From the IMG/VR virus record IMGVR_UViG_3300017751_000159, positions 1 to 27,972 of that record: a DNA stretch of 27,972 nucleotides. One strand, written 5' to 3'. The position numbers were made by a program, and so were the translations under genes. Under the pieces are notes generated by a model that saw nothing but the letters and a program-made list of their open reading frames with translations, was not told the origin of the DNA and ran no database searches. This DNA is from a virus. Position 1 is the stretch's first letter, and every line of letters starts with the position of its first letter. Below, one piece after another: positions 4,622-27,972 of this stretch.

Positions 4622-4622
4622 A

Positions 4623-5276: not shown

Positions 5277-5300
5277 TGAATAGAAAAAGGATATACAGAT

Positions 5301-5765
5301 ATGAAAGTGAGACCAGCAACACAGGCAGATGATGATGCCATTATTGAAATATTAAAACAGTTTGCGGAAGAACAACCATTTGGTAAACTGAAAATACATG
5401 CTTCAGCATACAATGATCACCATGTTAGAAAGGTGTTAAGTGCTATAAGAACAGGTGGATTATGCTTGTTAGCAACAGAAAAAGAACAAATAGTAGGTGT
5501 GTTCATGAGCGTGGTATTACCAGATATGTGGTTACCAAATATGCGTATCATGAATGAACTTGTTTGGTGGGTTGATCCACAGTATAGAGATACCAGTGCT
5601 GGATTAAGATTACTAAAAGAATATACAAAGGTAGGAGAGAAAATGGTAAACAAAGGTGACATTCACACATTTACACTAACCCTGTTAGAAAACTCCCCTA
5701 AACTAAACATTGAAAAAAGAGGTTGGTCACCAGTAGAGACTAACTATGTATTTGGAGAAAAATAG
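5301..5765 (+). CDS. GNAT-family N-acyltransferase inside the tail module
   Basis: This 154-residue protein begins MKVRPATQADDDAIIEILKQ, the usual first strand and helix of the GNAT fold. It has a central strand (GLCLLATEKEQIVGVFMSVV, about 53-72) and the acyl-CoA binding strand-loop-helix ELVWWVDPQYRDTSAGLRLL (86-105), where the Q-x-x-x-x-x-G/A type loop binds the pantetheine phosphate. A final strand region is near residue 120. The ribosome site is AAAAAGGA. The substrate cannot be read. It lies where lambda has its K peptidase, between tip genes, so it may modify a virion protein or a host target delivered late. A GNAT beside tail genes is known in several marine phages. Confidence 0.85.
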   Translation: MKVRPATQADDDAIIEILKQFAEEQPFGKLKIHASAYNDHHVRKVLSAIRTGGLCLLATEKEQIVGVFMSVVLPDMWLPNMRIMNELVWWVDPQYRDTSAGLRLLKEYTKVGEKMVNKGDIHTFTLTLLENSPKLNIEKRGWSPVETNYVFGEK

Positions 5766-8700: not shown

Positions 8701-9536
8701 ACAACATAACACTTGCTAAAGTAACAGATTCAGGCACATTAGCAGGATTAAATAACGCAGTATTAGGCACAAATACATCAGGCACATTACCTGAAGGACA
8801 AGGTGGAACTGGACAAACTTCAGATAGTGCTTATGCTTCACATTTAAGTTCACAAGGACTTATTGTCACAGAAGTAGCAGGTAGCACAGGTGCTATAAGT
8901 GCCGCAACACTTATATCAGCAGGTAGTCTTGCTGTTATAGGACAAGATATATCAGACTTTAACAATGACACAGGCTTTACAACAGGTGCTGGTGTTAATG
9001 CTAATGTTACAAGTATAAGTGGCGGAACTATTACAACAGGCACAATCAACTCTGATAGAATAAATGCTGGCACACTAAATGTAGAACATTTTGGAGATGT
9101 TAGTGCTGATATTGTTTCACATACTGGATCTACAGTTCCATTAAGCACATTTAGTAGTGCTTTCCAAAGAGGCTCAACAAACTTTACAACTCAAACACAA
9201 TCAACAGGCACATATTTGGCTCACGCAACATCGGATGTAAGAAATGGCGCAACATATAATGTTATATGGACAGGTGTATACGGAGATTGTACCAATGGGG
9301 TATTAGAATATAGTGTAAATGGCGGTTCAACTTATGTTCAAGCACAAGGTGGTATACAGTATGTTACTTTTAATGTAGGAACATTTAGAACTTATGTGTT
9401 TAGTTACAATGGCACTATATCAGGACTACCAACAACAGGAACAAATGCCAATAAAGTATATTGGAGAGTAAGATGGATAACAAAACTGAGAAGCACATAC
9501 CAATCAATGTATGTGAATATAGATAACACGCATTAA
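5766..9536 (+). CDS. Giant tail tip / receptor-binding protein (lambda I+J-like with fibre repeats)
   Basis: This 1256-residue protein begins immediately after the preceding stop. Residues about 12-52 are hydrophobic and Gly/Ala-rich, like the N-terminus of lambda gpI. Then comes a J-like core (GYRVPVVYGSAFQNGIITDAA; GDNPIRGTV; RTTIDRLLTACNSFFTYDAK near 290-315). A fibronectin-III-like region lies about 510-610 (SGIYTRAEAWFDT... SGTYYYQTRVG). The part from about 790 to 1020 is built of GGTG-headed repeats, and a C-terminal beta domain (NGGSTYVQAQGGIQYVTFNV) ends in an aromatic tail. It likely closes the tail tip, opens on receptor contact and carries a fused side or central fibre. Lambda J is 1132 residues, so the extension is modest. 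Confidence 0.85.
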   Translation: MAVFSAIAATFNYLVYTGIVLVGAGGAGTLLAIQATAALLTGAIVSGVSKGIGKMLMPDFPTGTTGTNAGVRVQLAPDTGYRVPVVYGSAFQNGIITDAAISSDNQTMTYVLTLGEKTDGNTTCGDIFWNDKKLVFGSSTSPNVTSTIDEDGTTSTDYANNVEVYVYDGFGDNPIRGTVDAYTLVDHWTSTEKNSGTIFAIIKVTYDPEAQLTGLGTMTFHLTNSINNPADVFDDFLTNTRYGAGIASGDIDSTSLQQLRSYSNELIDYTDQNGAAQQQARYTINGVVNTAEDCRTTIDRLLTACNSFFTYDAKIGKWKITPNKTQSTNNIPVFNDDNVLSEYKFSSTALESAFNSVEVEFPDKDQKDKNNYVTIDLPANLRETNEPDNGMTLRMEFVNNNVQAEYLANQQLRQTRDDLVVMFTADYTTLGIDAGDLVKIFEDQVYGQNNKVYRVVQTVEKEADNGMLTVEFTCLEYNSDVYTVEPITEFTPAPNSDITLFNRVGTPTTPTVDNERSLLSLPAFDINTNTPASGIYTRAEAWFDTNSNMSSKKLLATYRSPTTIGTGTEVEFTIKGLASGTYYYQTRVGNDEAFGPYSSTSSAHNWTANVLINPITIIDSNEPVLTAVNGNLVVNSGSIGTTYLDSAVNTILTNAASAVVVPTYNYFTTTNAAAPSDSVFNSQVGRDPIEDDIVVATKSGDTTVQKGYIHNGTNFVENTNFFSGGLITDGTIGADAIVANTITTDKLNFTPVTSVAGVTGASISTAQLSTAGLRFTTDAVASSLLSGTVDVANGGTGRTSTSSYVADLNAQGLRLTSETVDTGLLTGSAIPESLGGTGVTSRSAMYSADGVRLTSQTVPLSQTTGVLPTGQGGTGSNSLSAMFTAEGVRLDSQSVPFADVTGSVPESQGGTGATSLSAALTAEGVRFTSQTIPFGEITGTVPQNQGGTGSTSFASALTAQGVGFVSGSNANLGALASLDNITLAKVTDSGTLAGLNNAVLGTNTSGTLPEGQGGTGQTSDSAYASHLSSQGLIVTEVAGSTGAISAATLISAGSLAVIGQDISDFNNDTGFTTGAGVNANVTSISGGTITTGTINSDRINAGTLNVEHFGDVSADIVSHTGSTVPLSTFSSAFQRGSTNFTTQTQSTGTYLAHATSDVRNGATYNVIWTGVYGDCTNGVLEYSVNGGSTYVQAQGGIQYVTFNVGTFRTYVFSYNGTISGLPTTGTNANKVYWRVRWITKLRSTYQSMYVNIDNTH
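8145..8840 (+). repeat. GGTG-headed fibre repeats, 37-residue (111-base) period
   Basis: GGTGG-type heads (GGTG x T S) start at 8145, 8268, 8379, 8490, 8601 and 8802. Four successive heads, 8268 to 8601, are spaced exactly 111 bases; the outer spacings are 123 and 201. Each unit reads GGTG-TS--A----GVR-TSQTVP----TG-VP--Q. Such units usually form trimeric triple-beta or coiled fibre shafts. DNA copies differ at many synonymous positions, so these are old protein repeats and not recent duplications. Confidence 0.8.
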
Positions 9537-16115: not shown

Positions 16116-16205
16116 ATGCCAAAAGGAACTAAAAGCAGAGGAACAACAAAAGCAAACCCTTACATGAAGAAGAAGAAAAAGAAGGGTGCTAAGAAAAGAG
16201 GTTAA
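16116..16205 (+). CDS. 29-residue lysine-rich microprotein
   Basis: ATG at 16116 is preceded by AAGGAG at five-base spacing, one of the best ribosome sites in the window. The product is MPKGTKSRGTTKANPYMKKK and ends KKKGAKKRG: about 45 percent Lys/Arg, no acidic residues. It could bind nucleic acid or be packaged with the DNA. The tail of the frame overlaps the start of the next gene by 20 bases. The family is unknown to me, but short basic 'PKG...NPYMKKKKKKGAKKR' proteins fit the pattern of marine phage microproteins. Confidence 0.65.
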   Translation: MPKGTKSRGTTKANPYMKKKKKKGAKKRG

Positions 16206-16569
16206 CTGGCAAGAATACTATGCTCATATAAAGAGCGTATGTCCTTGGAGTTACAAAGCATATATGAATGATAACATATTAGTGTGGGAGAACGCAACTT
16301 CAAACACATGGCAAACTGTTAGTGCTGTTTTTGATAGCACAAACTTTGAAGCCATAGTGTATAGATTTGACAACCACACACCTAAACAGTTAGAACAGTT
16401 AGTGGATAAAATGACAGAACGCAGACCAAACTCAGAGTTTTTGTGGAGTCATCCAGACGCTGATTCAGGAGATGGTAACAGCACACCAGTGCCAGTTATC
16501 ATACAACAAAACAAAGAGGCACTTAATGACCTCAGACATAAACTAAAAGGAGCACACAATGGCAACTAA
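16186..16569 (+). CDS. Hypothetical protein, virion/late operon
   Basis: This 127-residue ORF reads from GTG 16186 (start inside the preceding microprotein) through WQEYYAHIKSVCPWSYKAYM, NTWQTVSAVFDSTNFEAIVY, and a helical C-terminus LNDLRHKLKG. The first ATG in frame is 27 codons later and would lose a well-formed aromatic segment, so GTG is preferred; the region upstream is purine-rich but lacks a clean AGGAG. I do not recognise a family. It overlaps the next small gene by 11 bases, typical of co-translation. Confidence 0.65.
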   Translation: MLRKEVNWQEYYAHIKSVCPWSYKAYMNDNILVWENATSNTWQTVSAVFDSTNFEAIVYRFDNHTPKQLEQLVDKMTERRPNSEFLWSHPDADSGDGNSTPVPVIIQQNKEALNDLRHKLKGAHNGN

Positions 16570-17005: not shown

Positions 17006-17013
17006 GATAAATA
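17006..17013 (+). promoter_or_regulatory. Late-promoter-like motif 1 (GATAAATA) before putative RNA 1
   Basis: GATAAATA is one base from the T4-type late promoter TATAAATA. With T4 spacing (motif at -13 to -6), transcription would begin at G 17019, which is exactly where the ten-base inverted repeat GTAACAAGTT begins. No protein gene lies within the next 500 bases. There is no obvious -35 box. Confidence 0.6.
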
Positions 17014-17018
17014 ATACT

Positions 17019-17200
17019 GTAACAAGTTATATTCCCAAGTGCTTTTATCGAGGCACTTTATATAATATCCGACATTGTGGCCAATAGAAGAACTTGTTAC
17101 GCATAACATTAATGTTATGCCATTAAACTCTGTTAGACGCACATCTAACATAGTGATTTATCCTAAATAAAGGTGAAGAACACACTTCGGTGTGTTTTTT
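17019..17200 (+). ncRNA. Putative structured small RNA 1 with terminator
   Basis: From the predicted start G 17019, GTAACAAGTT (17019-17028) pairs perfectly with AACTTGTTAC (17091-17100). Inside lie AAGTGC/GCACTT (17037-17042 with 17053-17058) and ATTG/CAAT (17074-17077 with 17082-17085), making a three-way junction. Next come a 20-base perfect palindrome GCATAACATTAATGTTATGC (17101-17120), hairpin TGTTAGA/TCTAACA (17131-17137 with 17144-17150) and a standard terminator at 17179-17200. No ORF of note is present. The RNA would be about 180 bases. It could also be the 3' end of the virion operon. Function unknown. Confidence 0.5.
17179..17200 (+). terminator. Rho-independent terminator with TTCG loop
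   Basis: AACACAC (17179-17185), loop TTCG, GTGTGTT (17190-17196) followed by TTTT. Seven perfect pairs, a very stable tetraloop and a T run. This is the clearest terminator in the window. It ends the virion operon read-through and putative RNA 1. Confidence 0.9.
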
Positions 17201-17240
17201 GCTGAATAGCCATACTATTTGTGATAAATGCCATACAATA

Positions 17241-17248
17241 GATAAATA
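17241..17248 (+). promoter_or_regulatory. Late-promoter-like motif 2 (GATAAATA) before putative RNA 2
   Basis: With T4 spacing the start would be T 17254, the first base of the twelve-base inverted repeat TGTAGCAAGAAA. It lies 41 bases after the strong terminator, as expected for an independent transcript. Confidence 0.6.
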
Positions 17249-17253
17249 TTAGT

Positions 17254-17420
17254 TGTAGCAAGAAAGAAATAAACACTAAATGTTTTCATAACATTTAATA
17301 ACTTGTTATACAACTCAGTTGTGTAGCAGTTACTCTATAGTCCTCAAAAACTATATTAGTTCATTTCCTTTGTTTTTCATATACATACTTAAAAGTTGCC
17401 ACTTTTTGTTTCTTGCTACA
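17254..17420 (+). ncRNA. Putative structured small RNA 2, closed by a 12-base-pair stem
   Basis: TGTAGCAAGAAA (17254-17265) is the perfect reverse complement of TTTCTTGCTACA (17409-17420). The enclosed 143 bases hold four hairpins: AAATGTT/AACATTT (17278-17284 with 17290-17296), TATACAAC/GTTGTGTA (17307-17314 with 17318-17325, one G-T), TATAGT/ACTATA (17336-17341 with 17350-17355) and AAAAGT/ACTTTT (17391-17396 with 17401-17406). This is a multibranch loop closed by the two ends, starting at the predicted start of promoter motif 2. A run of six T follows shortly after. No plus-strand ORF. Function unknown. Confidence 0.5.
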
Positions 17421-17456
17421 TTTACACCTTTTTTCTGTTTCATATTCACTGTATTA

Positions 17457-17464
17457 GATAAATA
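17457..17464 (+). promoter_or_regulatory. Late-promoter-like motif 3 (GATAAATA) with 5' hairpin
   Basis: The context is GATAAATAAAACTGTAAC. The predicted start is G 17470. CTGTAAC (17468-17474) pairs with GTTACAG (17501-17507), placing a hairpin at the very 5' end of the mRNA of the next two genes. The 3' arm touches the weak ribosome site of the gene at 17517, so it could affect translation. The sequence is almost identical to the minus-strand motif at 23841-23848. Confidence 0.6.
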
Positions 17465-17516
17465 AAACTGTAACACGATCATGTAGGCAACACATAGACA
17501 GTTACAGAGATATAAT

Positions 17517-17663
17517 ATGAAAAACAATACAGAAAAGAAAACACTTGACCAAGACAAAATAGCCTCAGTTGCTAAGTTTCTTTATGGACACACCAACATA
17601 AACAGTCTTACACCTAAACAGTTAGCCATAGTCAAATCATGTATAAAGGATAACATACTGTGA
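17517..17663 (+). CDS. 48-residue hypothetical protein
   Basis: ATG 17517 follows promoter motif 3 with a 47-base leader. The product, MKNNTEKKTLDQDKIASVAK... ending QLAIVKSCIKDNIL, is charged and helical. The ribosome site is only GAGAT-like. Its TGA overlaps the next GTG (GTGA), so the two genes are co-translated. No family recognised. Confidence 0.65.
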   Translation: MKNNTEKKTLDQDKIASVAKFLYGHTNINSLTPKQLAIVKSCIKDNIL

Positions 17664-18151
17664 AGAAAAGTGTAAAACAAAGAAAAGCGGCTAATAGAGC
17701 AATATATCATGCTGTTCAACAGCAGAAACAAGCAGATGCCATAGAAGGCATTAACCAAACAATAGAAAAAGATCTATATGGACCACAAAGACAAGTGGCA
17801 TTAGATAGAATAGTAAAAACCCAAGCAACAAAAACAAAAATACAAAAAGCAAATAGCATTGATCAAGTTATTGCTGTGAGCAAAGATCCAATACACGACA
17901 GTATAGGACGCAGAAGTGATTACGGTAGTAGCAAAGTCAGTAGCAAACAACAAACACAACAACTTGTCAAACAAGTAGTTGAAACATGGCAAAACACATC
18001 ATGGCCCATTTCAGGCAAATACAAAAACAAACAACTAAAACAACTACCACTCTCATATTTAGGGTGGGTGATTGATAACTTTCAAGAACACAGTATAGGC
18101 TACAAGTTAGCAAAACAAGAACTTGAAAGTAGATATCACAACATGGCATAA
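17660..18151 (+). CDS. Protein with C-terminal DUF3820 / ExoX-C-like domain
   Basis: This 163-residue protein starts at GTG inside the GTGA overlap. The first 110 residues are basic, Gln/Lys-rich and look helical or disordered (HAVQQQKQADAIEGINQTIE). The last 50 residues (WPISGKYKNKQLKQLPLSYL, then GWVIDNFQEHSIGYKLAKQE) fit the small domain G-K-x-K-x-x-x-l-x-x-l-P-x-x-Y-L-x-W-v found in DUF3820 proteins and at the C-terminus of ExoX-like nucleases. That domain accompanies nucleases and DNA-handling proteins in phages. No nuclease active site is visible here. Probably a DNA-metabolism accessory; moderate certainty for the domain. Confidence 0.7.
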   Translation: MKKSVKQRKAANRAIYHAVQQQKQADAIEGINQTIEKDLYGPQRQVALDRIVKTQATKTKIQKANSIDQVIAVSKDPIHDSIGRRSDYGSSKVSSKQQTQQLVKQVVETWQNTSWPISGKYKNKQLKQLPLSYLGWVIDNFQEHSIGYKLAKQELESRYHNMA

Positions 18152-18411
18152 ACTCAGAACCCTACATAAAATCCCTATAATGCGAAAACATGGTGACGCA
18201 GTGGAAAAGACGGTCGGAAAGGTCACATCACACTTAGTAGAGTAAACTACAAAAAACATACAAGCAAAAACAGTTATGTTATTGACACGAGAACATAACA
18301 CACACTTATAATGTATTATAAGCAAAGTCGTTACAGGTTGGAAAAGAACAGAGTCCATTGCTAATCAGTATGTATAAACAAATACCTGTTGTTTGAAAGA
18401 CTGTGATACTC

Positions 18412-18434
18412 ACATAATGTATCCTTTTAAGAGA
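18412..18434 (+). repeat. Direct repeat copy A (ACATAAT..ATC..TTTTAAGAGA)
   Basis: ACATAATGTATCC followed by TTTTAAGAGA. The second copy at 18471-18492 differs by one base change and one deletion. Spacing start to start is 59 bases. A 12-base-pair hairpin begins inside the end of this copy. Confidence 0.7.
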
Positions 18435-18457
18435 ACACTATACAGTAGTGTTTTCTT
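18429..18457 (+). terminator. 12-base-pair hairpin with T-rich 3' arm
   Basis: AAGAGAACACTA (18429-18440) pairs with TAGTGTTTTCTT (18446-18457) through one G-T pair, loop TACAG. The T-rich 3' arm suggests a terminator for the 17517-18151 operon, although a clean T run after the stem is missing. Confidence 0.45.
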
Positions 18458-18470
18458 GACTGAAATATCT

Positions 18471-18492
18471 ACATAATATATCTTTTAAGAGA
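18471..18492 (+). repeat. Direct repeat copy B
   Basis: ACATAATATATC followed by TTTTAAGAGA, partner of the copy at 18412-18434. ATCTTTTAAGAGAT within it is almost palindromic. Confidence 0.7.
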
Positions 18493-18743
18493 TGTAAATC
18501 ATAAGCAAGTAAGCAACTACACGAGTGTAACGAGTGTTTGCTACTTGGTTTGAGTAAACGCAGTTTGCTCATGTAAGTTGACTCAATAATACTTCTCACT
18601 TAGTCTTGTTTAATGCTTCGCATTAACCAAAAACAAGTCACAACCACTAAAGTGGAGTTGTTGACTTGTTTAAGTTACTCCGTAATCACTATTTGAGTAT
18701 ATCTTTGCTGTCATGACTTAAATATATGCTGTAGGAGACACAC

Positions 18744-19022
18744 ATGAGCAGTTATATATTAAATGATCCTCGTTATGACACCAGAGGAATAGCAGATACT
18801 CATCAAGGTTGGTGTAGGGATTTGCCAGAACAACTAACAGAACAACAAGAGGAAACACTACAGTGGTTATATGACACATCACCACCAAAACAACGCAAAT
18901 ATGTTATAATAGATGACATACTGGTGGAATGTTGCGTTAACAGAGTGCTATACCGTAAACATCATGAGTTTGGATGGTGTAAGGTGACCTCTAACGGTGG
19001 CTATATACAGGTTAAAGGATAA
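18744..19022 (+). CDS. Hypothetical protein before terminase small subunit
   Basis: This 92-residue ORF starts at ATG 18744 with AGGAG at seven- to eight-base spacing. It contains RYDTRGIADTHQGWCRDLPE, a Gln/Glu-rich helix (QLTEQQEETLQWLYDT) and a beta C-terminus with KYVIIDDILVECCVNRVLYR. Three cysteines and two histidines occur, but not in a clear metal-binding spacing. I do not recognise the family. It is the first gene of the packaging block, and its stop codon overlaps promoter motif 4. Confidence 0.65.
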   Translation: MSSYILNDPRYDTRGIADTHQGWCRDLPEQLTEQQEETLQWLYDTSPPKQRKYVIIDDILVECCVNRVLYRKHHEFGWCKVTSNGGYIQVKG

Positions 19023-19025
19023 ATA
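19018..19025 (+). promoter_or_regulatory. Late-promoter-like motif 4 (GATAAATA) before terminase small subunit
   Basis: The octamer overlaps the stop codon of the preceding gene. The predicted start is about 19031, giving a leader of 36 bases. A short hairpin CAGT/ACTG (19037-19049) lies in the leader; here the hairpin is offset from the start by about six bases. AGGAG follows for the gene at 19067. Confidence 0.5.
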
Positions 19026-19066
19026 AACAGAACATCACAGTATTACACTGATTTACAGGAGACATT

Positions 19067-19465
19067 ATGTCTAATGAACATGACAACAACCCAACACCAC
19101 CATATCAAGTAAAAAACATAAAACGCGGTGAGAAAACAGTCACGGGTAGAGTAGTAGGTAGAGCAAAAACAGTTATACCTGAAGATGAGTTCTATCAAAT
19201 GGCTTGCCTTTTCTCCACTTGGAAAGACTTTTCAGAGTATTATTCAGTGCCAGAAAGCACACTCAGAGACAACTTTCGCGATTTATACATAAAAGCAAGA
19301 CAAACCACAAAACGCAAGTTGCGTAGTAAAATGTTGGAAACAGCATTGAACGGTGATAGAGTCATGATGATCTGGTTGAGTAAACAATGGTTAGATATGA
19401 GTGACTCACCTGAAAAAGGTTCAGAGAGTGATATCTTACCGTGGAATGAGGAAACAAATGAATAG
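19067..19465 (+). CDS. Terminase small subunit (probable)
   Basis: This 132-residue protein is placed one small gene cluster before the large terminase. It has a helix-turn-helix-like segment (FSTWKDFSEYYSVPESTLRD, about 46-65) for DNA binding and the C-terminal pattern KMLETALNGDRVMMIWLSKQWLDMSD. That A..G....miwL.KqwL...d motif is typical of small terminase-like proteins in environmental phages, where it precedes oligomerisation. It would recognise the packaging start site and load the large subunit. Its end overlaps the next tiny gene by eight bases. Confidence 0.8.
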   Translation: MSNEHDNNPTPPYQVKNIKRGEKTVTGRVVGRAKTVIPEDEFYQMACLFSTWKDFSEYYSVPESTLRDNFRDLYIKARQTTKRKLRSKMLETALNGDRVMMIWLSKQWLDMSDSPEKGSESDILPWNEETNE

Positions 19466-19574
19466 CGTATATGAAGCAATCAAACAGTATTGGAAACTAA
19501 CACACAATCAAACACTATGGGCAATAGCCGGCATAGGTTTTGTGATAGCAAGTATCATAGCATTAGTGCTATAA
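19458..19574 (+). CDS. 38-residue single-pass membrane microprotein
   Basis: ATG 19458 with GAGGA upstream. MNSVYEAIKQYWKLTHNQTL is followed by one hydrophobic helix (WAIAGIGFVIASIIALVL) that runs to the last residue. It lies between the terminase subunits. Could be a holin-like or host-membrane-acting protein. The family is unknown; short length is the main doubt. Confidence 0.6.
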   Translation: MNSVYEAIKQYWKLTHNQTLWAIAGIGFVIASIIALVL

Positions 19575-19720
19575 TCAGTTGTAAGTCCTGCTGATGCGTA
19601 TATAAGCCTTTATTGCCATTTAGGTTATTTCCCCGCTCAGCAGGCAACCCCAGCACCTCAAAAACAGCCAAAAAACACCATTATTGTATAAATAGTATTA
19701 TCGATAAAGGAGATATAGAT
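19575..19720 (+). other. Structured gap with C-rich tract between small membrane genes
   Basis: CCTGCTGA (19587-19594) pairs with TCAGCAGG (19637-19644), eight perfect pairs. TTGCC (19613-19617), in the loop, is complementary to GGCAA (19643-19647) just after the stem, so a pseudoknot or alternative fold is possible. The stretch 19631-19658 is unusually C-rich for this genome. TATAAATA follows at 19687. An operon end, regulatory RNA or packaging signal are all possible. Confidence 0.4.
19687..19694 (+). promoter_or_regulatory. Late-promoter-like motif 5 (TATAAATA, exact T4 consensus)
   Basis: This copy is identical to the T4 late promoter core. The predicted start is about 19700, giving a short leader before the gene at 19721 that contains AAAGGAG. 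It would drive the small membrane protein and the large terminase. Confidence 0.55.
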
Positions 19721-19912
19721 ATGAAGATGAACTTTTCAGAAGAAAAAACCAGATACATTAACACAATGAGCCTATGTGGACTTAGTCTACTTTGGGGTCA
19801 AATGTTGGGAATGATATCACCATGGTTCACACCATTAACTGTGCTAACAATCATTATTGGATATGGTTCAGAACTAAACAAACCAAAAGAATCCACAAAC
19901 AGCATACACTAA
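19721..19912 (+). CDS. Small membrane protein upstream of terminase
   Basis: I choose ATG 19721 (63 residues), since AAAGGAG stands eight bases upstream; a longer frame from 19613 would read through the structured gap and the promoter motif. The product has a polar start (MKMNFSEEKTRYINT), hydrophobic helices from about residue 16 to 45 (MSLCGLSLLWGQMLG, FTPLTVLTIIIGYG) and a polar end. Probably inserts into the inner membrane with one or two helices. The second membrane microprotein beside the terminase genes; a lysis role is possible but unproven. One base separates its stop from the terminase GTG. Confidence 0.7.
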   Translation: MKMNFSEEKTRYINTMSLCGLSLLWGQMLGMISPWFTPLTVLTIIIGYGSELNKPKESTNSIH

Positions 19913-19913
19913 G

Positions 19914-21152
19914 GTGAAACTCACCCCACCACAAAGGATTATATCAGATGATCCAAATAGATTCCGTGTTGCGGCATGTGGGAGGCGTTTTGGTAAAAGT
20001 TTCTTGAGCATCAATGAACTTGCCAAATACAGTAGACACCCTAATCAAAAGTGTTTGTATGTGGCACCAACTTACCGCCAGGCAAAGCAAGTTATATGGG
20101 ATGAACTAAAGAATAGATTATATGCTGTAAAGTGGATAAAAAAGGTCAATGAAAGTGATCTCAACATACAGTTAAAGAATGGTTCAGTTATATACTTGCG
20201 TAGTGCTGACAACAGAGAAGCATTGAGGGGAGCAAAGTATAACTTCATAGTAATGGATGAGTGTGCTGATATACATGAAGAAACATGGCATCAAATACTT
20301 AGACCCACACTAAGTGACACACAAGGACATGCTTTATTCATTGGTTCACCAAAAGGGCGTAACTGGTTCTTTGACTTATACAGTTTAAGTGGTGAAGAAG
20401 GTTGGCAATCATGGCAGTTCACCACAGAAGAAGGTGGCAATGTGCCCTTAGAAGAAATAGAAGCGGCAAAAAGAGATTTAGACGCCAAAACCTATGAGCA
20501 AGAATACTTATCGCAGTTTGTTAGTTATTCAGGTGTGTGTTACTACAGTTTCACAGAAGACAATGTGTTACCACCACCTAAAACATTACCCACTAACACC
20601 CCTATACACATAGGCATGGACTTTAACATAGATCCAATGAGTGCTGTGGTATGTGTAACAGATCAACAAGACAATGCTTGGGTAATAGATGAAATAACCA
20701 TATACAGTTCAAACACCAATGAAATGGCAGAAGAAATAAAAGCCAGATACGGTAATAGACCAGTGTTTGTGTATCCTGATGCTACTGGACTTAGACGCAC
20801 AACTAACAGCACAGGCATGAGTGATCACCTCATACTACAACATCATGGATTCAAACTGATAACTGGCAAAAGCAATCCGCCAGTAGCAGAACGCATAAGT
20901 AGTGTGAACGCAAGGTTATGTAACAACACAGGTGAACGCAAACTGTTTGTGTCACCACAATGTAAACAACTCAGAGATGGCTTAATCAAAATGACATACC
21001 GTGAAGGCACAAGACAACCAGATAAAAGCACAGGACATGATCATATCACAGATGCTTTAGGCTACTACATACAGAGAACATGGCCTATAATGGGCAAAGC
21101 ACCAGAACCATACAGAAGCACAAGGCGTAGCACAGGAGGCAGTTTAAGATGA
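19914..21152 (+). CDS. terL: Terminase large subunit
   Basis: This 412-residue ATPase-nuclease drives DNA into the prohead and cuts it. Walker A is CGRRFGKS (22-29) and Walker B FIVMDEC with catalytic D115/E116; the coupling motif is FIGSPKG (142-148). The RNase-H-like nuclease half has the acidic residues D236 (IGMDFN), D289 (VYPDATG) and D376/D380 (GHDHITDALGYY). Length is at the short end for the family, as is common for compact marine phages. The start is GTG 19914, two bases after the preceding stop, with AAGGTG overlapping as a weak ribosome site. The last bases overlap the next ATG (ATGA). Confidence 0.97.
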   Translation: MKLTPPQRIISDDPNRFRVAACGRRFGKSFLSINELAKYSRHPNQKCLYVAPTYRQAKQVIWDELKNRLYAVKWIKKVNESDLNIQLKNGSVIYLRSADNREALRGAKYNFIVMDECADIHEETWHQILRPTLSDTQGHALFIGSPKGRNWFFDLYSLSGEEGWQSWQFTTEEGGNVPLEEIEAAKRDLDAKTYEQEYLSQFVSYSGVCYYSFTEDNVLPPPKTLPTNTPIHIGMDFNIDPMSAVVCVTDQQDNAWVIDEITIYSSNTNEMAEEIKARYGNRPVFVYPDATGLRRTTNSTGMSDHLILQHHGFKLITGKSNPPVAERISSVNARLCNNTGERKLFVSPQCKQLRDGLIKMTYREGTRQPDKSTGHDHITDALGYYIQRTWPIMGKAPEPYRSTRRSTGGSLR

Positions 21153-21394
21153 GCAAAAACAAAGACAAACAATGGATAGCAAATGAGAAGATCATTGCCA
21201 AAGATCCTGTATTACGAGGAGCCAGAGACACAGCAGAAGGTTTCAAGCCAAGTTCAGGTATAACCACAGGCAGTAATGATGCTGAATACAAAGCAGGATA
21301 TGACAAAATAAAATGGAACAAGGATAAGAAACAAAAGCCAAAGTTCAAAGTAAGAGTAAACGGTGTGCTACAATACCCAGAAGATGAAGAATAA
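21149..21394 (+). CDS. Small basic hypothetical protein after terminase
   Basis: This 81-residue, Lys-rich protein begins in the ATGA overlap with the terminase. It reads MSKNKDKQWIANEKIIAKDP then GFKPSSGITTGSNDAEYKAG and ends with a small strand-like segment FKVRVNGVLQYPEDEE. It appears largely disordered except for the C-terminus. No family recognised. Coupling to the terminase suggests a packaging or head-related role. Confidence 0.7.
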   Translation: MSKNKDKQWIANEKIIAKDPVLRGARDTAEGFKPSSGITTGSNDAEYKAGYDKIKWNKDKKQKPKFKVRVNGVLQYPEDEE

Positions 21395-21695
21395 GTTTAA
21401 CAAATCAACATATAGGCCATTGCCAGAAGGCTTAACCATAAAAGCCAGTAACATAGACGGACTTGGCTTGTATGCTACTAACATGATACCGGCTGGAACT
21501 AACTTGGGTATTACACATCATTATACACTAAGTAATACTATAAGAACACCGCTTGGAGGCTTTATTAATCATTCAGATACTCCTAACTGTTATATCACTG
21601 TAGAAGAACAACATAACATATTACACACAGTCACAACCATAGGCGCAGGTGAAGAACTAACTGTGTGTTATAGATTGGAGTTATCAGATGACTGA
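21384..21695 (+). CDS. SET-domain protein lysine methyltransferase-like protein
   Basis: Start at ATG 21384 (103 residues), overlapping the previous gene by 11 bases. Family motifs: an opening strand and GLGLYAT (26-32, the R/GxGvfA start), IPAGT (35-39), the catalytic core GFINHSDTPNC (59-69, equivalent to NHSC.PN), and GEELTVCY (89-96, equivalent to GEELt.dY with the active tyrosine Y96). SET domains transfer methyl groups from S-adenosylmethionine to lysine side chains. This is a minimal form without pre- or post-SET cysteine clusters. The target, perhaps a virion or host protein, is unknown. Confidence 0.88.
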   Translation: MKNKFNKSTYRPLPEGLTIKASNIDGLGLYATNMIPAGTNLGITHHYTLSNTIRTPLGGFINHSDTPNCYITVEEQHNILHTVTTIGAGEELTVCYRLELSDD

Positions 21696-21840
21696 ACACT
21701 ATAAACAAACACATGGCGGCAAAGGCTCAGCAAGGCGTAATGCCAATGATAAGGCGTATGCTGATAACTGGGATAAGATATTTGGCAAAAAGTCAAAGAA
21801 ACCACAAAGTGAGGAAAAAGAGCATGACAGAAAGAGATAA
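21688..21840 (+). CDS. Small conserved-type phage protein (GGKGS...NWDKIFGKK)
   Basis: ATG 21688 lies in the end of the SET gene. The 50-residue product contains HGGKGSARRNANDKAYADNW then DKIFGKKSKK. The GGKGS.R......F/Y...W..IFGK pattern is a familiar short protein in T7-like and marine podoviruses and siphoviruses, usually beside the terminase. Function is unknown; the N-terminal basic motif may bind nucleic acid. It overlaps the next gene by 17 bases. Confidence 0.8.
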   Translation: MTEHYKQTHGGKGSARRNANDKAYADNWDKIFGKKSKKPQSEEKEHDRKR

Positions 21841-22093
21841 TAAAGGATATGATGACATAAACAGTTACGACCATCCTGGTGTAGCAATGTTTATGAAGTT
21901 TCAAAGTGATTGGCACACACTAAGTGAATATCAACAACAGTTAGCCACAGAGAACAACAGTATAATATACAAGAGATACCGTTTAAGCCAGAAATATGGC
22001 AAACATGTGTATAACTATCTCACAAATGGTGGCATACGCAAGTATAATGATAAGTATGTTGTGCTGTGGGACAGTTCAGACTCTAATCAATAG
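21824..22093 (+). CDS. Hypothetical protein, end of packaging block
   Basis: Start at ATG 21824 (89 residues), after a purine-rich GAGGAAAAAGAG; the longer frame from 21713 lies within the preceding gene and is rejected. The protein has a helical middle (DWHTLSEYQQQLATENNSII) and ends with Tyr-rich YLTNGGIRKYNDKYVVLWDS. No known family. It is the last plus-strand gene before the convergent hairpin. Confidence 0.65.
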   Translation: MTERDNKGYDDINSYDHPGVAMFMKFQSDWHTLSEYQQQLATENNSIIYKRYRLSQKYGKHVYNYLTNGGIRKYNDKYVVLWDSSDSNQ

Positions 22094-22116
22094 GTAGGTA
22101 GTAGGAGTAACTGGTA

Positions 22117-22162
22117 GGCCTAATGTGCTGTAACTATCGTAAGGTTACAGCCAGCATTAGCC
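22117..22162. terminator. Convergent long hairpin between opposing operons
   Basis: GG and CTAATG (22117-22125, bulged C) pair with CATTAG and CC (22155-22162); CTGTAAC (22128-22134) pairs with GTTACAG (22144-22150), with a short internal loop. The total is about 15 base pairs around a nine-base loop. It lies between two convergent gene ends, and its 3' arm includes the stop codon of the minus-strand gene at 22157. There is no strong T run, so termination may be partial or the hairpin may protect 3' ends of both mRNAs. Confidence 0.6.
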
Positions 22163-22657
22163 GTTTATACTGCCATCAATCAGTTTACCATCCCAATCAT
22201 AGTTTATAACCTTATACCACAAGTTAAGACATTTCTTAACTGATTCAAGGTCTCTACAATCAGTGTTGATACTTTCTTGATGTATTTCAACAGGCCTTAT
22301 AGGTATTTGAACACGCTCACGGTTTCTGGCTTTATACCAGGTATCAGAAGGTCTACGGAAGCCACATTCAAACTCTAACTCTTCATCCCATACTTCAGTG
22401 ATGTATTTGTTTACCAACAAGTGACCATTGTTACATAATGTTCTTGCCGCATTGTTGTATAATACTATGTAAGGTTCACGCTCATTAACACCTGCTGGTT
22501 CTGGTATAATAAACTCTGTTCTCACATTACCGTGTGTGGTATAACTAAAGCCTAACTCAGTGGCTATGTCTATGATAGCAGTTGTTCTTTGAGCAGGATT
22601 TAAGTCATTTGCGTATATGTGTGGTGTGAGTTCTTTGAGGTAAGCAAGTGGATTCAT
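22157..22657 (-). CDS. Hypothetical protein, minus-strand block gene 3
   Basis: This 166-residue protein begins MNPLAYLKELTPHIYANDLN in an ATGA overlap with the gene upstream. The middle reads DIATELGFSYTTHGNVRTEF then EPYIVLYNNAARTLCNNGH, a mix of helix and strand that looks folded. RRPSDTWYKARNRERVQIPI follows, and the end is WYKVINYDWDGKLIDG. I recognise no domain. It is the last of three co-directional genes. Confidence 0.75.
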   Translation of the reverse strand: MNPLAYLKELTPHIYANDLNPAQRTTAIIDIATELGFSYTTHGNVRTEFIIPEPAGVNEREPYIVLYNNAARTLCNNGHLLVNKYITEVWDEELEFECGFRRPSDTWYKARNRERVQIPIRPVEIHQESINTDCRDLESVKKCLNLWYKVINYDWDGKLIDGSING

Positions 22658-23067
22658 TTGAGATCCTCTAAGTTAAAGAATGTGCTCATTGAAGCAACTT
22701 TCCAACATGACTGATCTTGCCAGTTTACAGGCGCAGTAAATCTACCTTTATTCCAAATGCCAATATATGCTGGTGACTCATGATATACATCACCGTAACG
22801 CCTTTCTCTGCCGGCCACAGTGATAGGATGTATGCCCAGTTCATGTGCTAACTCTACAATAGTCTTGTTATACTTCTTTTCCCAGAATGTTATTTGTTTA
22901 CGCCTTTGAAATGGGTTACCAAAGTTACGCACTCTCATGTGTATAGCATCTGGTGTGATACCTTCGTGCTCTGCTAATGCTTTGGCACTAATACCCCATT
23001 TGTGTTCAAAGCCTGTTATTTTATTGCCCGTTACTGGGCATATTACTTTGTTTGATCCTTTTGTCAT
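22654..23067 (-). CDS. DNA-binding-like protein with two tandem helix-turn-helix repeats
   Basis: This 137-residue protein has an internal duplication. Residues 24-56 read WGISAKALAEHEGITPDAIH with following RVRNFG; residues 66-95 read YNKTIVELAHELGIHPITVA with following RERRYG. Both fit the pattern ELA...GI.P..V..R.R.yG, i.e. helix-turn-helix followed by a basic patch. The N-terminus has a C-P-x-TG motif. It may be a transcription regulator or a DNA-targeting partner. Its ATG lies in an overlap with the upstream gene, and its stop overlaps the next start. Confidence 0.75.
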   Translation of the reverse strand: MTKGSNKVICPVTGNKITGFEHKWGISAKALAEHEGITPDAIHMRVRNFGNPFQRRKQITFWEKKYNKTIVELAHELGIHPITVAGRERRYGDVYHESPAYIGIWNKGRFTAPVNWQDQSCWKVASMSTFFNLEDLK

Positions 23068-23789
23068 AGTGTTATTGTTCTCCCTTTTTCTTCTTCATCA
23101 GTAAAGTCTACGCCATACGCACTTAGTTCTTTGCTGTAATGATAAAAATGTATTGGCATAAGAGGTGGATTTTTTCTACTTGTTTTCTTGATAAAGCCAA
23201 CATCTGTGTCTGTGAGTATTCTTTCTTGTTTGATACTGTCATGATATCCACACAAGAACCACCATGCCATCCAGTATACATGTTCTATGAATGTCATTTG
23301 TGCTTTGTTGAACACAGCATATTCTCCGTTAGCCAAAAAGTTTCTGCGTAATCCTGCTATCATTGTGAGTGTGGTATTGCCTGTGCCTACTGCTTCATGT
23401 GTGCTACAGTGGTTAATAGGCTGTAAGAAGTATTTGAAGCATGTGTCAAAATGTGCCATACTTTTGTGGCATAGTTCATTTTCCATGCGTTCTAACCAAT
23501 ACATTATGTAATCTGTATCACCTTTGGTAAAGTTAACAAACAGTTCATGTTTGTTGTTCTTGTCATACACATAAGGTATACACATATGGTTAACCATAAA
23601 GTATTTGTCTGTTTCATGTGGCATAGCCAATGCGTTTGCCGGGTCATTAATGCCTATATCCTGGAAAAAGCCTGTGGCATGTTCTTCTTTGCCAGATGTT
23701 TTCATTGATCCAGGCATTGTTAGTCTCTGAAATGGTTTTCTTTGCTTGACTTTTTTTGGTCTATGTTTTTTTGTTCTTTTCTTGGTCAT
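23064..23789 (-). CDS. Hypothetical protein, minus-strand block gene 1
   Basis: This 241-residue protein has a strongly basic N-terminus (MTKKRTKKHRPKKVKQRKPF), a region with CFKYFLQPINHCSTHEAVG, and aromatic-rich VYWMAWWFLCGYHDS. Cysteines and histidines are frequent but not in a known metal-binding spacing. The ribosome site is CAGGAG at six-base spacing. Promoter motif 7 starts the transcript 46 bases upstream. No domain recognised. The basic tail suggests contact with nucleic acid. Confidence 0.75.
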   Translation of the reverse strand: MTKKRTKKHRPKKVKQRKPFQRLTMPGSMKTSGKEEHATGFFQDIGINDPANALAMPHETDKYFMVNHMCIPYVYDKNNKHELFVNFTKGDTDYIMYWLERMENELCHKSMAHFDTCFKYFLQPINHCSTHEAVGTGNTTLTMIAGLRRNFLANGEYAVFNKAQMTFIEHVYWMAWWFLCGYHDSIKQERILTDTDVGFIKKTSRKNPPLMPIHFYHYSKELSAYGVDFTDEEEKGRTITL

Positions 23790-23840
23790 TCTATCTCCTG
23801 TGTTGTTAAGTTGCCTGTAATATGTTTAGTATTACAGTTT

Positions 23841-23848
23841 TATTTATC
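23841..23848 (-). promoter_or_regulatory. Late-promoter-like motif 7, minus strand, with 5' hairpin
   Basis: On the minus strand the site reads GATAAATAAAACTGTAATA, almost the same as motif 3. The predicted start is at 23835. From there GTAATA pairs with TATTAC (CTGTAATA/TATTACAG, plus-strand 23815-23822 with 23830-23837), a hairpin at the 5' end of the minus-strand operon mRNA. Confidence 0.6.
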
Positions 23849-23936
23849 ACTATTAGCATAAAAAACGGTTAGAATAGGCACAAAAACCACTATGTAATAC
23901 TTTTGTTCACTTAGAGCCTATAAAACCTCACATTTG

Positions 23937-23944
23937 GATAAATA
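23937..23944 (+). promoter_or_regulatory. Late-promoter-like motif 6 (GATAAATA) before portal gene
   Basis: The predicted start is T 23950. The perfect 12-base palindrome TTGATATATCAA occupies 23949-23960, at the start of the leader. AAGGAG at 23968-23973 serves the portal TTG. This motif and motif 7 fire divergently from the 192-base gap 23790-23981, which holds no gene. Confidence 0.6.
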
Positions 23945-23981: not shown

Positions 23982-25664
23982 TTGAGTGACTCTTATCGCG
24001 ATTACATTGTAGGCGTTCATAGCCTATATAACAAATACGAGCAGGATTGGCAACTGGCCAGAGACAGTTATTTTGGCGGAGTTGAAATCCGTGATGGAAA
24101 GTATCTTAAGGCTTATGCTGTAGATATGAATACTCCTGCTGAAACAGTAAACACTTATACCACAGACTCAAATGGTTATGTTAAAACCAGCAAAGCCAGA
24201 GTTGAGAATGTAAGCACAAAAGCAGAAGCACACAGAGGTGAAGACACCATAGATGGCGGAACCTTTTATGCTGAGAAACTAAACAACACACCATACTTAA
24301 ACTACTTGCGCCTAATAACCGCAGAGTATAACAGTATCCTATTCAAAAACCCACCAGTTAGAACTGTTGGAGAACAACCAGACATGGATGAGTTCTTAAA
24401 CAATGTAAATGGTGAAGAAGACAATATCAATGAGTTCATGGCAACAGTTGATCTATACAGTTTCATATATGGAACAGCATGGATTAGTTGTGTAAAACCA
24501 ATAGGCTCAGATATACCAAAATGGAAAATCCATACACCGTTAGATGTTACAAACTGGCACTACGGTTACGATGGAAGAGGCGATCTAAACTTGAAGAGCA
24601 TAGTGATCAAACTTCATGAAGACGCAGAGGAAACAGTTTATAGATATATGACACCGGAGTCAATAGAAACTGTTTGGGTAGGAGAAGAGGACGATTATGT
24701 CCCAGATGTAGCAGATAGCAATCTCATAAAAGAAGATGGTTATTGGAGAGTCATAGAAGAAAATGAACTCGGCTATATTCCAGTGGTGCCAGTTTACCAG
24801 GGTCTAAAAATATACAACGGCATAGGTGCTACACCAAGTTTTGATTTAGCACAAATACAAAGAAGTGTATATTCAGATATGGCTGAGATATATAGTGTGA
24901 TCTCATATGGAGCACATGGTTCATTAATAGTTGATGAAGCCACAGACAGTCTCAATGACGGAGCCATTTCAGCAGAACCAGGAAGTGTAGTAAGAGTGCC
25001 AGCAGGATTAGGTGAAGCACCTAACTATGTGTATGAGTTTGTTACACCAGCCTTAACAGCAGTAACAGAGATCCGTGAACTAATAGATCAAAAAATAACC
25101 AAAATGACTGAGATAGCAATGATCCGCAGTGATGATTTAATCAAAAGCAGTCGTTCAGGTGAACAGTTAGAACAGTATGACTCAAAGTTAGAAGCATTTG
25201 TGCGTAGAAAGGCACAAAACTTAGAAAACGCAGAAGCAAAACTGTTTAACATATGGTATGATTGGACAAACACACAAAAGCCAGAAGAGTTTAGTGTTAG
25301 TTACAATCGCCAATACAGTAAGAAGGCACTACAGCATGAAGTTGCTGAAATAGATAGCCTATTAAAGACTTACCAAGATTATCAAAGTGTATTCTCAACA
25401 GACTACACTATACAAGAATATGCTACACAGGCAGAAGCAGAAAGTGTAGCAAACAGTTTAGGTGGTAGTGGTTTTCATACTCATGAAAATGAAGAAGGAA
25501 TCACTGTTTATATGCCGTTCAATACTCATCCAGAGTATGATGCGGCAGTAGAAGCCATCAAGAAGGGCGGAGAAGACGCCGGATTTGTAGAAGAAATGCG
25601 AGACAAACTACGCAAAAGACTCAGTCAGTTAGTAGAATCATCTACCACTGATAACGGCCTTTAA
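23982..25664 (+). CDS. Portal protein
   Basis: This 560-residue protein forms the twelve-fold ring at the head vertex through which DNA passes. It opens SDSYRDYIVGVHSLYNKYEQ, followed by a folded wing/stem region with YLNYLRLITAEYNSILFKNP (typical early helix and NPP). A clip/stem region has VPVYQGLKIYNGIGATPSFD, and long helices follow near residues 360-430 (EIRELIDQKITKMTEIAMIR; KLEAFVRRKAQNLENAEAKL), as in SPP1 gp6-like portals. The start is TTG 23982, eight bases after AAGGAG; no better ATG is near. Position beside terminase, scaffold and capsid supports the call. Confidence 0.88.
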   Translation: MSDSYRDYIVGVHSLYNKYEQDWQLARDSYFGGVEIRDGKYLKAYAVDMNTPAETVNTYTTDSNGYVKTSKARVENVSTKAEAHRGEDTIDGGTFYAEKLNNTPYLNYLRLITAEYNSILFKNPPVRTVGEQPDMDEFLNNVNGEEDNINEFMATVDLYSFIYGTAWISCVKPIGSDIPKWKIHTPLDVTNWHYGYDGRGDLNLKSIVIKLHEDAEETVYRYMTPESIETVWVGEEDDYVPDVADSNLIKEDGYWRVIEENELGYIPVVPVYQGLKIYNGIGATPSFDLAQIQRSVYSDMAEIYSVISYGAHGSLIVDEATDSLNDGAISAEPGSVVRVPAGLGEAPNYVYEFVTPALTAVTEIRELIDQKITKMTEIAMIRSDDLIKSSRSGEQLEQYDSKLEAFVRRKAQNLENAEAKLFNIWYDWTNTQKPEEFSVSYNRQYSKKALQHEVAEIDSLLKTYQDYQSVFSTDYTIQEYATQAEAESVANSLGGSGFHTHENEEGITVYMPFNTHPEYDAAVEAIKKGGEDAGFVEEMRDKLRKRLSQLVESSTTDNGL

Positions 25665-26617: not shown

Positions 26618-27583
26618 ATGTCAACAAATAGTGCTAACCTATTAAATAAGTTATTTGAAGAAGTATCAGGCGATCTTATTGCTCATTATGACAACTCAGT
26701 CTTAATGCCTTCATCAGAACTTATTTCAAACTCTTACAACTTAGTAGGAGCGGTTGGGAACTCAATGAGAATCCCAGTCACAAACGCATGGGCAACTGGC
26801 GCATCAGGAATCGGCGAATCAGTAGATATCGCAGGTGCCACTGGAGCAGTCCAAGATTTTAACCCAACAGCAGTAGATTTACCAGTCGGAAAAAGAGGAG
26901 CATTCTCTTATGTAACGGCTGAGGCCTTAGAAGACGGTGGACTAAGCACGGTTTCTAACGCAGTTTCAACAAGATTAGCAAGAAGTATTGCTCAATCCAC
27001 AGACCAAAGTGCGTTCAAATACATGCTAAACAACACTGATGTAGCACCAGCAACAGCAGACTTACTTGACGGAGCAGACAGCAATGTTGAACTTGTCAAT
27101 AACACATTAACAGGTAACTTGGACATTTGTCCTGTTTTCTCACCAGAAGCAATGGCTTACTGTGTCAAAAGACAACCTGAACTAAAAATGTGGGAAGATG
27201 TGAAGTTTGACCAAACATCAATGGTAGCAACAATGAGAAACGGTTTTGCTCAAATCCAAAGAGATTTCATCAAAGCAGTTGGCGGCAACACAGCCGTTGG
27301 AGCAACAGCACAAAAGGCTACTTTAGCCGCATTTGCTGAAGCAGTTGCTAAACTAAGAAGTGAAAACGCACCAACAGACGCGGCAGGATTCTATTTTGCG
27401 GCTATATCACCAGCGATTGAACTACAACTTGTAGATCAGTTAACACATATTGCTAACGGCGGAACAGTTGGTTCTTTAAGTAGCACAGGTGATAGAGTGC
27501 TTATGGATTCTTTAGTAGGACAAGCAGTCGGCATCCGCTACCTGCGTTCTAACAATATTGTTAAAGGTATAGCGGCATCATAA
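26618..27583 (+). CDS. Major capsid protein
   Basis: This 321-residue protein follows the scaffold and has a ribosome site AAGGAG. The N-terminus (LLNKLFEEVSGDLIAHYDNS) is helical and short, followed by an extended loop (MRIPVTNAWATGASGIGESV) and the spine/strand segments with VDLPVGKRGAFSYVTAEALE. The late segment FYFAAISPAIELQLVDQLTH contains the shell-forming beta sheet, and the end is QAVGIRYLRSNNIVKGIAAS. The pattern matches HK97-fold capsid proteins of marine siphophages. Its codon use is richer in C-ending codons (ATC, GTC, AAC) than neighbours, which fits high expression. Confidence 0.88.
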   Translation: MSTNSANLLNKLFEEVSGDLIAHYDNSVLMPSSELISNSYNLVGAVGNSMRIPVTNAWATGASGIGESVDIAGATGAVQDFNPTAVDLPVGKRGAFSYVTAEALEDGGLSTVSNAVSTRLARSIAQSTDQSAFKYMLNNTDVAPATADLLDGADSNVELVNNTLTGNLDICPVFSPEAMAYCVKRQPELKMWEDVKFDQTSMVATMRNGFAQIQRDFIKAVGGNTAVGATAQKATLAAFAEAVAKLRSENAPTDAAGFYFAAISPAIELQLVDQLTHIANGGTVGSLSSTGDRVLMDSLVGQAVGIRYLRSNNIVKGIAAS

Positions 27584-27598
27584 GCCTAAGGAGATAAT

Positions 27599-27972
27599 AT
27601 GGCATTCGTAACTAATGTAAACGGTAATGTAATAGCATACTGTGAAGCGGCAGATATCAGAGATAAAGATCAAAGGGTTTTTGAATCCAATGAGATTAAC
27701 TTTGCTGACGCACCTACAACGCCAACATCTCTTGATGAATATTTAGAAGACTTATCAATCAAAGCATTTGCTCGTATAAATGAAAAAATACGGGCAAGTG
27801 CCAAGTGGAGAAGTTACTTGGGTTATACAAATAATAGTGCCTTAACTGGCAATACTATTCCAGGTATAAACGCTGACCGTATAGTAGGAAGGAAATCAGA
27901 TATTACTGATCTTGCTACTTACTATGTGTTAAAAGAATACCTGTTACCTAAAGTAGCAGATTTTGGAGATGA
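27599..27972 (+). CDS. Head-completion / connector protein (partial, runs off the window)
   Basis: ATG 27599 has AAGGAG at seven-base spacing. The first 124 residues are visible: MAFVTNVNGNVIAYCEAADI, SLDEYLEDLSIKAFARINEK, and KSDITDLATYYVLKEYLLPK before the sequence ends. The small helical pattern with paired segments and position right after the capsid gene suit a head-tail connector (gp15/gp6-like). The far end lies outside the window, so size and C-terminus are unknown. Confidence 0.65.
   Translation, partial: MAFVTNVNGNVIAYCEAADIRDKDQRVFESNEINFADAPTTPTSLDEYLEDLSIKAFARINEKIRASAKWRSYLGYTNNSALTGNTIPGINADRIVGRKSDITDLATYYVLKEYLLPKVADFGD

Follow-up and report, generated by a model that had tools for sequence, protein, structure and literature searches.

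How does a phage with siphoviral virion genes come to carry, in the gaps ahead of them, what looks like the late promoter core of T4? The question is raised by the 27,972 bases of an IMG/VR virus record analysed here (the window; guanine-plus-cytosine (GC) content 38%). The initial annotation, made from these letters alone, had described a family of NATAAATA elements ([GT]ATAAATA) between genes, read them as T4-like late promoters combined with a 5'-terminal hairpin, and remarked that the gene content is siphoviral and that no late sigma factor gene is in view. We found that the motif is enriched, oriented and conserved across a family of related phages, that it lies in a fixed register to transcript stems with covarying arms and within an upstream architecture of its own, and that recognisable genes for gp55, gp45 and replication are absent.

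A conserved motif in gene gaps

A scan of the window recovered all seven [GT]ATAAATA sites at the positions and on the strands previously assigned, and no further ones; the sites at 17457 and 23841 (minus strand) also have GATAAATAAAACTGTAA in common, as had been stated. An eighth site, AATAAATA, a variant of NATAAATA, had been overlooked (Table 1). Counted over the whole window, the seven sites were unremarkable (4.2 expected by shuffling, with 17 of 100 shuffles equalling or exceeding the count), and gap and orientation tests were used in place of this non-significant count. Six of the seven sites lay entirely within the 2,112 gap bases that make up 7.5% of the window, compared with 0.95 expected, and only 2 of 2,000 simulations reached as high a number.

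The family gave the same picture. In a de novo count of 7-mers over 22 family genomes, ATAAATA was the most enriched word in co-directional gaps, with 105 occurrences against 2.7 expected from coding sequence (about 40-fold), and outranked Shine-Dalgarno words. In relatives of higher GC content, mostly at about 50% identity, gap sites faced the next gene 54 times and faced away four times. Relatives held matching sites in equivalent gene gaps while the flanking sequence differed. The comparison of coding with gap counts, set beforehand as the test that could refute the motif, came out in its favour, with a strong preference for gaps. Enrichment, direction and conservation in relatives bear out the promoter family, and its siphoviral setting is confirmed as well. 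By comparison, gap enrichment of GATAAATA or TATAAATA was found neither in low-GC sister phages nor in four pelagiphages.

That the motif is no promoter at all, and either arises as a by-product of gaps rich in A and T or is some other kind of binding site, is very improbable: the non-significant window-wide count would suit such a reading, but the enrichment in 22 genomes exceeds that of all other 7-mers, and the strong co-directionality, the constant distance to RNA stem starts, the purine at +1 and the constant upstream spacing described below all speak against it. We take NATAAATA to be probably the main promoter of a siphophage family of about 29 kb, whose closest sequenced relative is phage DSL-LC06.

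Start site and upstream architecture

The spacing of T4 late promoters, which the initial annotation had assumed, agreed both with the register of stem starts and with the frequency of purines. Over 181 distinct gap sites, stems of at least 9 base pairs (bp) began at offset 5 in 22 cases, compared with 0-2 at offsets 9-19, and a purine stood at position +6 past the motif in 73% of sites. Because hairpin arms peak 5-6 bases downstream of the motif, the predicted T4-like start site appears to be right.

The more specific proposal, that the start base coincides with the first base of a perfect inverted repeat at three sites, held at 17019 (GTAACAAGTT, 10 bp) and 17254 (TGTAGCAAGAAA, 12 bp), both perfect; on the minus strand, where 23835 had been given as exact, the repeat begins at 23837, two bases ahead of the predicted start. 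At the site at 17457 the repeat begins at 17468, again two bases ahead and within the margin of two bases claimed for it. The repeat named for the site at 23937, in turn, is the palindrome TGATATATCA, which leaves no room for a loop and hence is not usable as an RNA hairpin. No repeat was found at 19687, as expected, nor at 19018, where one about six bases off had been described. Hairpins are a property of the family by the register test, yet they are present at only some promoters, and the idea that promoter core and 5' hairpin form one unit had to be given up: the hairpin is not general to the promoter and is tied to specific RNAs and related leaders.

Upstream of the core, a different regularity emerged. 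Aligned to the predicted start, A/T tetrads peaked at -50, -39, -28 and -18 (36, 58, 66 and 32% of 163 family promoters, respectively, with troughs of 2-10%), and CC steps peaked at -43 (29%) and -31 (18%). The phasing has a period of about 10.7 bases, a -35 hexamer is absent, and A/T tracts and CC were seen in both GC classes of the family. Neither feature was found in the late promoters of T4, S-PM2, HTVC008M or P-RSM6, and the joint upstream signature marked 55% of the 163 family promoters, compared with 10% of 50 late promoters drawn from 80 gp55-bearing IMG/VR contigs, which favour T at -13 and A at +1. The identification as T4 late promoters stands for core and spacing, but the phased A/T tracts and the CC step are foreign to T4-like sets, and this upstream architecture is the clearest departure from the T4 system. 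The phased tracts may contact the alpha subunits of RNA polymerase or bend the DNA.

Candidate structured RNAs behind the promoters

Two candidate non-coding RNAs, structured and covarying, account together with related leaders for most of what had been described as a 5'-terminal hairpin. RNA 1 comprises a closing stem (GTAACAAGTT/AACTTGTTAC) that opens at the predicted +1, G17019, a TTTTATCGAG-loop hairpin, a palindromic hairpin and an intrinsic terminator at about 17176-17200; its folding energy is -50.3 kcal/mol, compared with -30.6 for shuffles (z = -5.0). In four diverged relatives, the homologues have retained both the TTTTATCGAG loop and the terminator, and their stems are altered but paired. 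RNA 2 folds still further from expectation (z = -6.4 for 17254-17436).

As MAFFT alignments between RNA elements of unequal length were poor, we tested the closing stems directly. Since the arms had been selected for their pairing, re-dealing them among homologues served as a test of covariation, and the offset count over the 181 sites as the test of detection. For RNA 2, 75 of 78 pairs at variable positions were kept across 13 homologues, whereas re-dealt arms kept a mean of 41.8 and a maximum of 62. For RNA 1 and leader elements (n = 22), 219 of 220 pairs were kept, compared with a re-dealt mean of 141.3 and maximum of 169.

A third conserved non-coding stretch, at 18151-18744, is probably a long structured RNA; it has a separate upstream TATAAATA in relatives G001-G003 and is weakly detected in more distant relatives. 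The covariance models of Rfam 15 gave no match to the 17-18.7 kb region or to six loci of relatives, and searches for transfer RNA and transfer-messenger RNA were negative. This adds, outside known Rfam families, two or three strongly conserved structured RNAs of phage origin whose starts are predicted.

Within such RNA elements a 17-base block, TGACGATTGGTCTCCGA, occurs in 22 contigs, every one of this phage's family, and always shortly downstream of NATAAATA. Two readings of the block were rejected: inspected by eye as a hammerhead ribozyme, it varies at both the required A after GA and the required C before UGA, and as a trace of T4-like helpers it fails since all 22 contigs are this phage's own relatives.

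The GTTGCC of RNA 2 (17394-17410) is complementary to GGCAAC in two leaders of NATAAATA transcripts (17480-17495 and 23805-23815). Of all permutations of its letters, GGCAAC is the one most often met in family leaders (31 of 192; median 4), and the ATGGCAA start-codon context may explain part of this excess. The complementarity is only a lead to RNA function.

Which factor reads the promoter

T4 gp55 is a sigma factor without a -35-reading domain. Searching for it (phrog_234), we found none in the window or in 20 relatives, with a positive T4 control, which confirms the absence of a late sigma gene remarked on in the initial annotation. The sliding clamp gp45 (phrog_223), which the annotation had suggested looking for, had no match in the window or about 20 relatives either, whereas T4, S-PM2, HTVC008M and P-RSM6, run as controls, were positive. 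G002 and G004, two relatives, have the counterpart of the window gene at 27599-27970, downstream of the head protein, separated by 729 bases from the gene of window 1-351, which puts the window at about 97% of a genome of about 28.7 kb (the remaining long relatives have 28.8-31.2 kb). The missing late sigma is thus a property of the whole family and does not come from having seen only part of the genome.

Replication genes were not recognised either. Against the best 25 PHROG families and all of Pfam, the non-virion proteins of the complete DSL-LC06, G030 and G011 genomes gave no match to a polymerase, helicase, primase, single-strand binding protein, sigma factor or integrase, and neither a replication family nor an integrase was recognised among the window open reading frames (ORFs) scanned; going by sequence, replication genes diverged beyond recognition may exist in the family. 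Sister phages without the motif have primosomal, ERF, exonuclease and ParB-like genes, and a DnaD-type replication gene, present in three of four pelagiphages, was not found in the family.

We propose that RNA polymerase carrying a gp55-type factor would fire the NATAAATA promoters, whose core occupies -13 to -6, downstream of a CC step at -43 and of A/T tracts that recur in helical phase, near -18, -28, -39 and -50. The tracts would probably take the place of a -35 box or of the T4 clamp in aiding recruitment. Transcripts would begin at the +1 purine, and at several loci their first bases would pair into a long closing stem; two free-standing small RNAs and structured leaders would result. 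The factor would not be phage-encoded and would come in trans, from a co-infecting T4-like phage or from the host. A gp55-type promoter served from outside the phage, with architecture and RNA units as proposed, seems to us about evenly poised between right and wrong. As to the supplier, we assign a T4-like helper, the host and an unrecognised phage protein about one third each, the phage protein slightly less.

A specificity factor of the phage's own, too diverged or too small to recognise, such as an unannotated short protein, is on balance unlikely. Many short proteins lack a family match, and the protein at 22654-23067 (minus strand) has two helix-turn-helix repeats, but beyond the small terminase no non-virion gene is found in every motif-bearing family genome. 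Across the 22 family genomes, some of whose records are fragments, the shared genes are those of the virion plus the small terminase, the latter being the only one found in 22 of 22. Two proteins were tried as the sigma factor and neither was supported: the tandem helix-turn-helix protein has no sigma-like fold match and is present in only 7 of 22 genomes, and the conserved 16186-16569 protein is alpha/beta, whereas sigma is all-helical.

A host factor would be an alternative sigma, or the housekeeping RNA polymerase acting on an unusual -10 element with help from the phased tracts, and this we regard as possible, at rather less than even weight. The A/T phasing of about 10.7 bases without a -35 hexamer fits it, and a parallel exists in Campylobacter jejuni RpoD promoters, in which a periodic signal is reported to replace the -35 box (Petersen et al. 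2003, cited in PMC3353397). Classic TTGACA-17-TATAAT promoters within the same relatives' genomes, however, imply that the main sigma of the host recognises another sequence. No bacterial sigma is known to us that has a TATAAATA core. A search for the host by large terminase in 84,980 bacterial and archaeal genomes gave nothing above 44%, and no family member was found. If a host factor is nevertheless responsible, a host sigma having T4-late specificity would be implied.

A T4-like helper, as a special case of our preferred explanation, would supply both gp55-type late transcription and replication to a family of virion-building satellites, and carries a similar minority share of our confidence. 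It is favoured by the shared core, which is that of the T4 and cyanophage late promoter (PMC2984593), and by a virion gene set that stands without recognised replication genes. Sister phages that do bear replication genes lack the motif, and virion-encoding satellites have precedent (PMC10690885). Against a simple version of it stand the distinct upstream architecture, with the joint signature so much rarer in gp55-contig promoters, and the sigma-70 promoters of several relatives; no helper has been identified. If a helper phage is the supplier, these phages would represent a type of virion-encoding satellite that is common in marine and fresh water and has been overlooked. The fullest form of this idea, a bacterial counterpart of virophages in which complete-virion satellite siphophages rely on the gp55-type transcription and replisome of a T4-like co-infector and make structured RNAs from those promoters, is doubtful.

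Several points weigh against a gp55-type factor from outside. The upstream architecture is unlike every sampled T4-like late set, which argues against simple borrowing of a known helper's machinery; the external factor is deduced from an absence, and small unrecognised phage proteins remain. In addition, textbook TTGACA-17-TATAAT sigma-70 promoters stand on accessory genes in several relatives, mostly opposite to the virion genes, so that these phages can begin some transcription alone. In those relatives the host enzyme may plausibly drive early expression, with virion genes expressed later from NATAAATA. The idea that all promoters are late-type fits the window, where three strong sigma-70 matches lie in gaps and none is ahead of a gene on its own strand, but not for the relatives. 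The accessory genes concerned, each behind such a promoter, lie at 4599-11643 in L093, 5409-8686 in L098 and 2619-10142 in L207, and several of their proteins open with a common tag, KEIK(Q/T)YAKEHKCSIREAQRQLGE.

Features of the window and its relatives

The window contains its own capsid, terminase, portal and tail genes, in this like virion-encoding satellite phages of the Mulch and Flayer type (Table 1). GC skew did not reveal a clear origin. Among motif-bearing relatives with a name, phage DSL-LC06 is the closest by large terminase; its circular genome of 29,811 bases was assembled from a Dishui Lake metagenome. Sister lines with related large terminase and virion gene order are the Pelagibacter phages HTVC111P, 026P, 112P and 202P. 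In DSL-LC06 (L089), positions 1732-9017 hold cargo genes for glycosyltransferases, methyltransferases, a PacI-like restriction enzyme and HNH nucleases, with replication genes not recognised. A small SET-domain ORF at window 21384-21695 (plus strand), present in no other family genome, matches P-RSM6 and P-SSM7 as well as the Pelagibacter siphophage Kolga; it is the only gene found to be shared with T4-like phages, and as a link to them it is weak since Kolga matches too. Directly past the tail-end genes, at 16117-16205 (plus strand), lies a very basic ORF of about 29 residues with lysine runs. A PYLIS_2 match from Rfam at 26745-26838 (plus strand), within the head protein gene, stays below threshold (28 bits; gathering 36) and is most likely due to chance.

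Table 1. Promoter cores, candidate RNAs and genes of the window
Feature	Position	Strand	Remarks
Eighth NATAAATA-type site (AATAAATA)	593-600	+	Within 3' end of ORF 423-698, ahead of tail genes; site and context also in G002 and G004
Tape measure	1626-3956		
Tail tip protein, J-like	5766-9536		
Promoter core GATAAATA, small RNA 1	17006-17013	+	Scan; kept in G001-G004
Candidate small non-coding RNA 1	17019-17200	+	Fold z-score; homologues with changed, still-paired stems; no Rfam match
Promoter core GATAAATA, small RNA 2	17241-17248	+	Scan and relatives' gaps
Candidate small non-coding RNA 2	17254-17420	+	Closing stem TGTAGCAAGAAA/TTTCTTGCTACA; includes GTTGCC; T-run after, ~17428-17435
Promoter core GATAAATA, genes of 17518-18151	17457-17464	+	CC at -43, T-tract at -39
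Short leader hairpin CTGTAAC/GTTACAG around GGCAAC	17468-17507	+	Weak (z = -1.5)
Third conserved non-coding stretch	18151-18744	+	~590 bases; fold z = -3.6; nhmmer matches in many relatives
Promoter core GATAAATA, upstream of small terminase gene	19018-19025	+	Overlaps stop codon of ORF 18744-19022
Small terminase gene	19067-19465		
Promoter core TATAAATA, upstream of 19722-19912 and large terminase gene	19687-19694	+	
Large terminase gene	19914-21152		
Tandem helix-turn-helix protein	22654-23067	-	Sole candidate DNA-binding regulator; in 7/22 family genomes
Leader hairpin CTGTAATA/TATTACAG	23815-23837	-	Followed by GGCAAC
Promoter core GATAAATA, minus-strand genes 23789-22157	23841-23848	-	
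Promoter core GATAAATA, upstream of portal gene	23937-23944	+	
Portal gene	23982-25664		
Major head protein	26618-27583		

Comparison with known systems

The core itself is known, as that of T4 and cyanophage late promoters (PMC2984593); for its setting, its extended architecture and the RNA units, no description was found in the literature searched. Together, these findings define an extended T4-late-type promoter in siphophages without T4 late machinery or recognisable replication genes, and raise the testable question of where their sigma factor and replisome come from. The T4 late promoters (TATAAATA; gp55/gp33/gp45) and the cyanomyovirus late promoters (NATAAATA; S-PM2, Syn9) are alike to those of the family in core, in inferred purine-start spacing, in the absence of a -35 hexamer and in their place ahead of virion genes. 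In contrast to them, the family has phased A/T tracts and CC at -43, prefers G over T at -13, uses G at +1 as frequently as A, and consists of siphoviruses of about 29 kb without gp55 or gp45.

In Campylobacter jejuni, upstream A/T is helically periodic and the -35 box absent as in the family, going by what PMC3353397 relates from Petersen et al. 2003, but the RpoD promoters there have a TATAAT -10 element where the family has the ATAAATA of NATAAATA, and relatives of the window phage run other genes from -35/-10 promoters.

Satellites offer a second line of comparison. The satellite phages of the Streptomyces systems Mulch and Flayer encode encapsidation machinery themselves and are without key replication genes (PMC10690885), in both respects like the family, but no helper is known for the family, and the hosts are unrelated. 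The main text of that report never uses the word "promoter", so promoter sharing is not reported there, and no satellites with T4 late promoters were found in the literature searched. The virophages Sputnik and Mavirus bear the late promoter of their giant virus (PMC6723459). The logic is shared, in that a small virus has promoters corresponding to the late promoter of a larger one; the family differs in being a bacterial tailed phage, in an upstream promoter part not in common with the sampled T4-like phages, and in a dependence that is only hypothesised.

Closest to the window are its own relatives. The pelagiphages HTVC111P, 026P, 202P and 112P have a related terminase and gene order without gap-enriched GATAAATA or TATAAATA, whereas DSL-LC06, which together with its IMG/VR cluster is likewise related in large terminase and order of the virion genes, shares the motif with the window phage.

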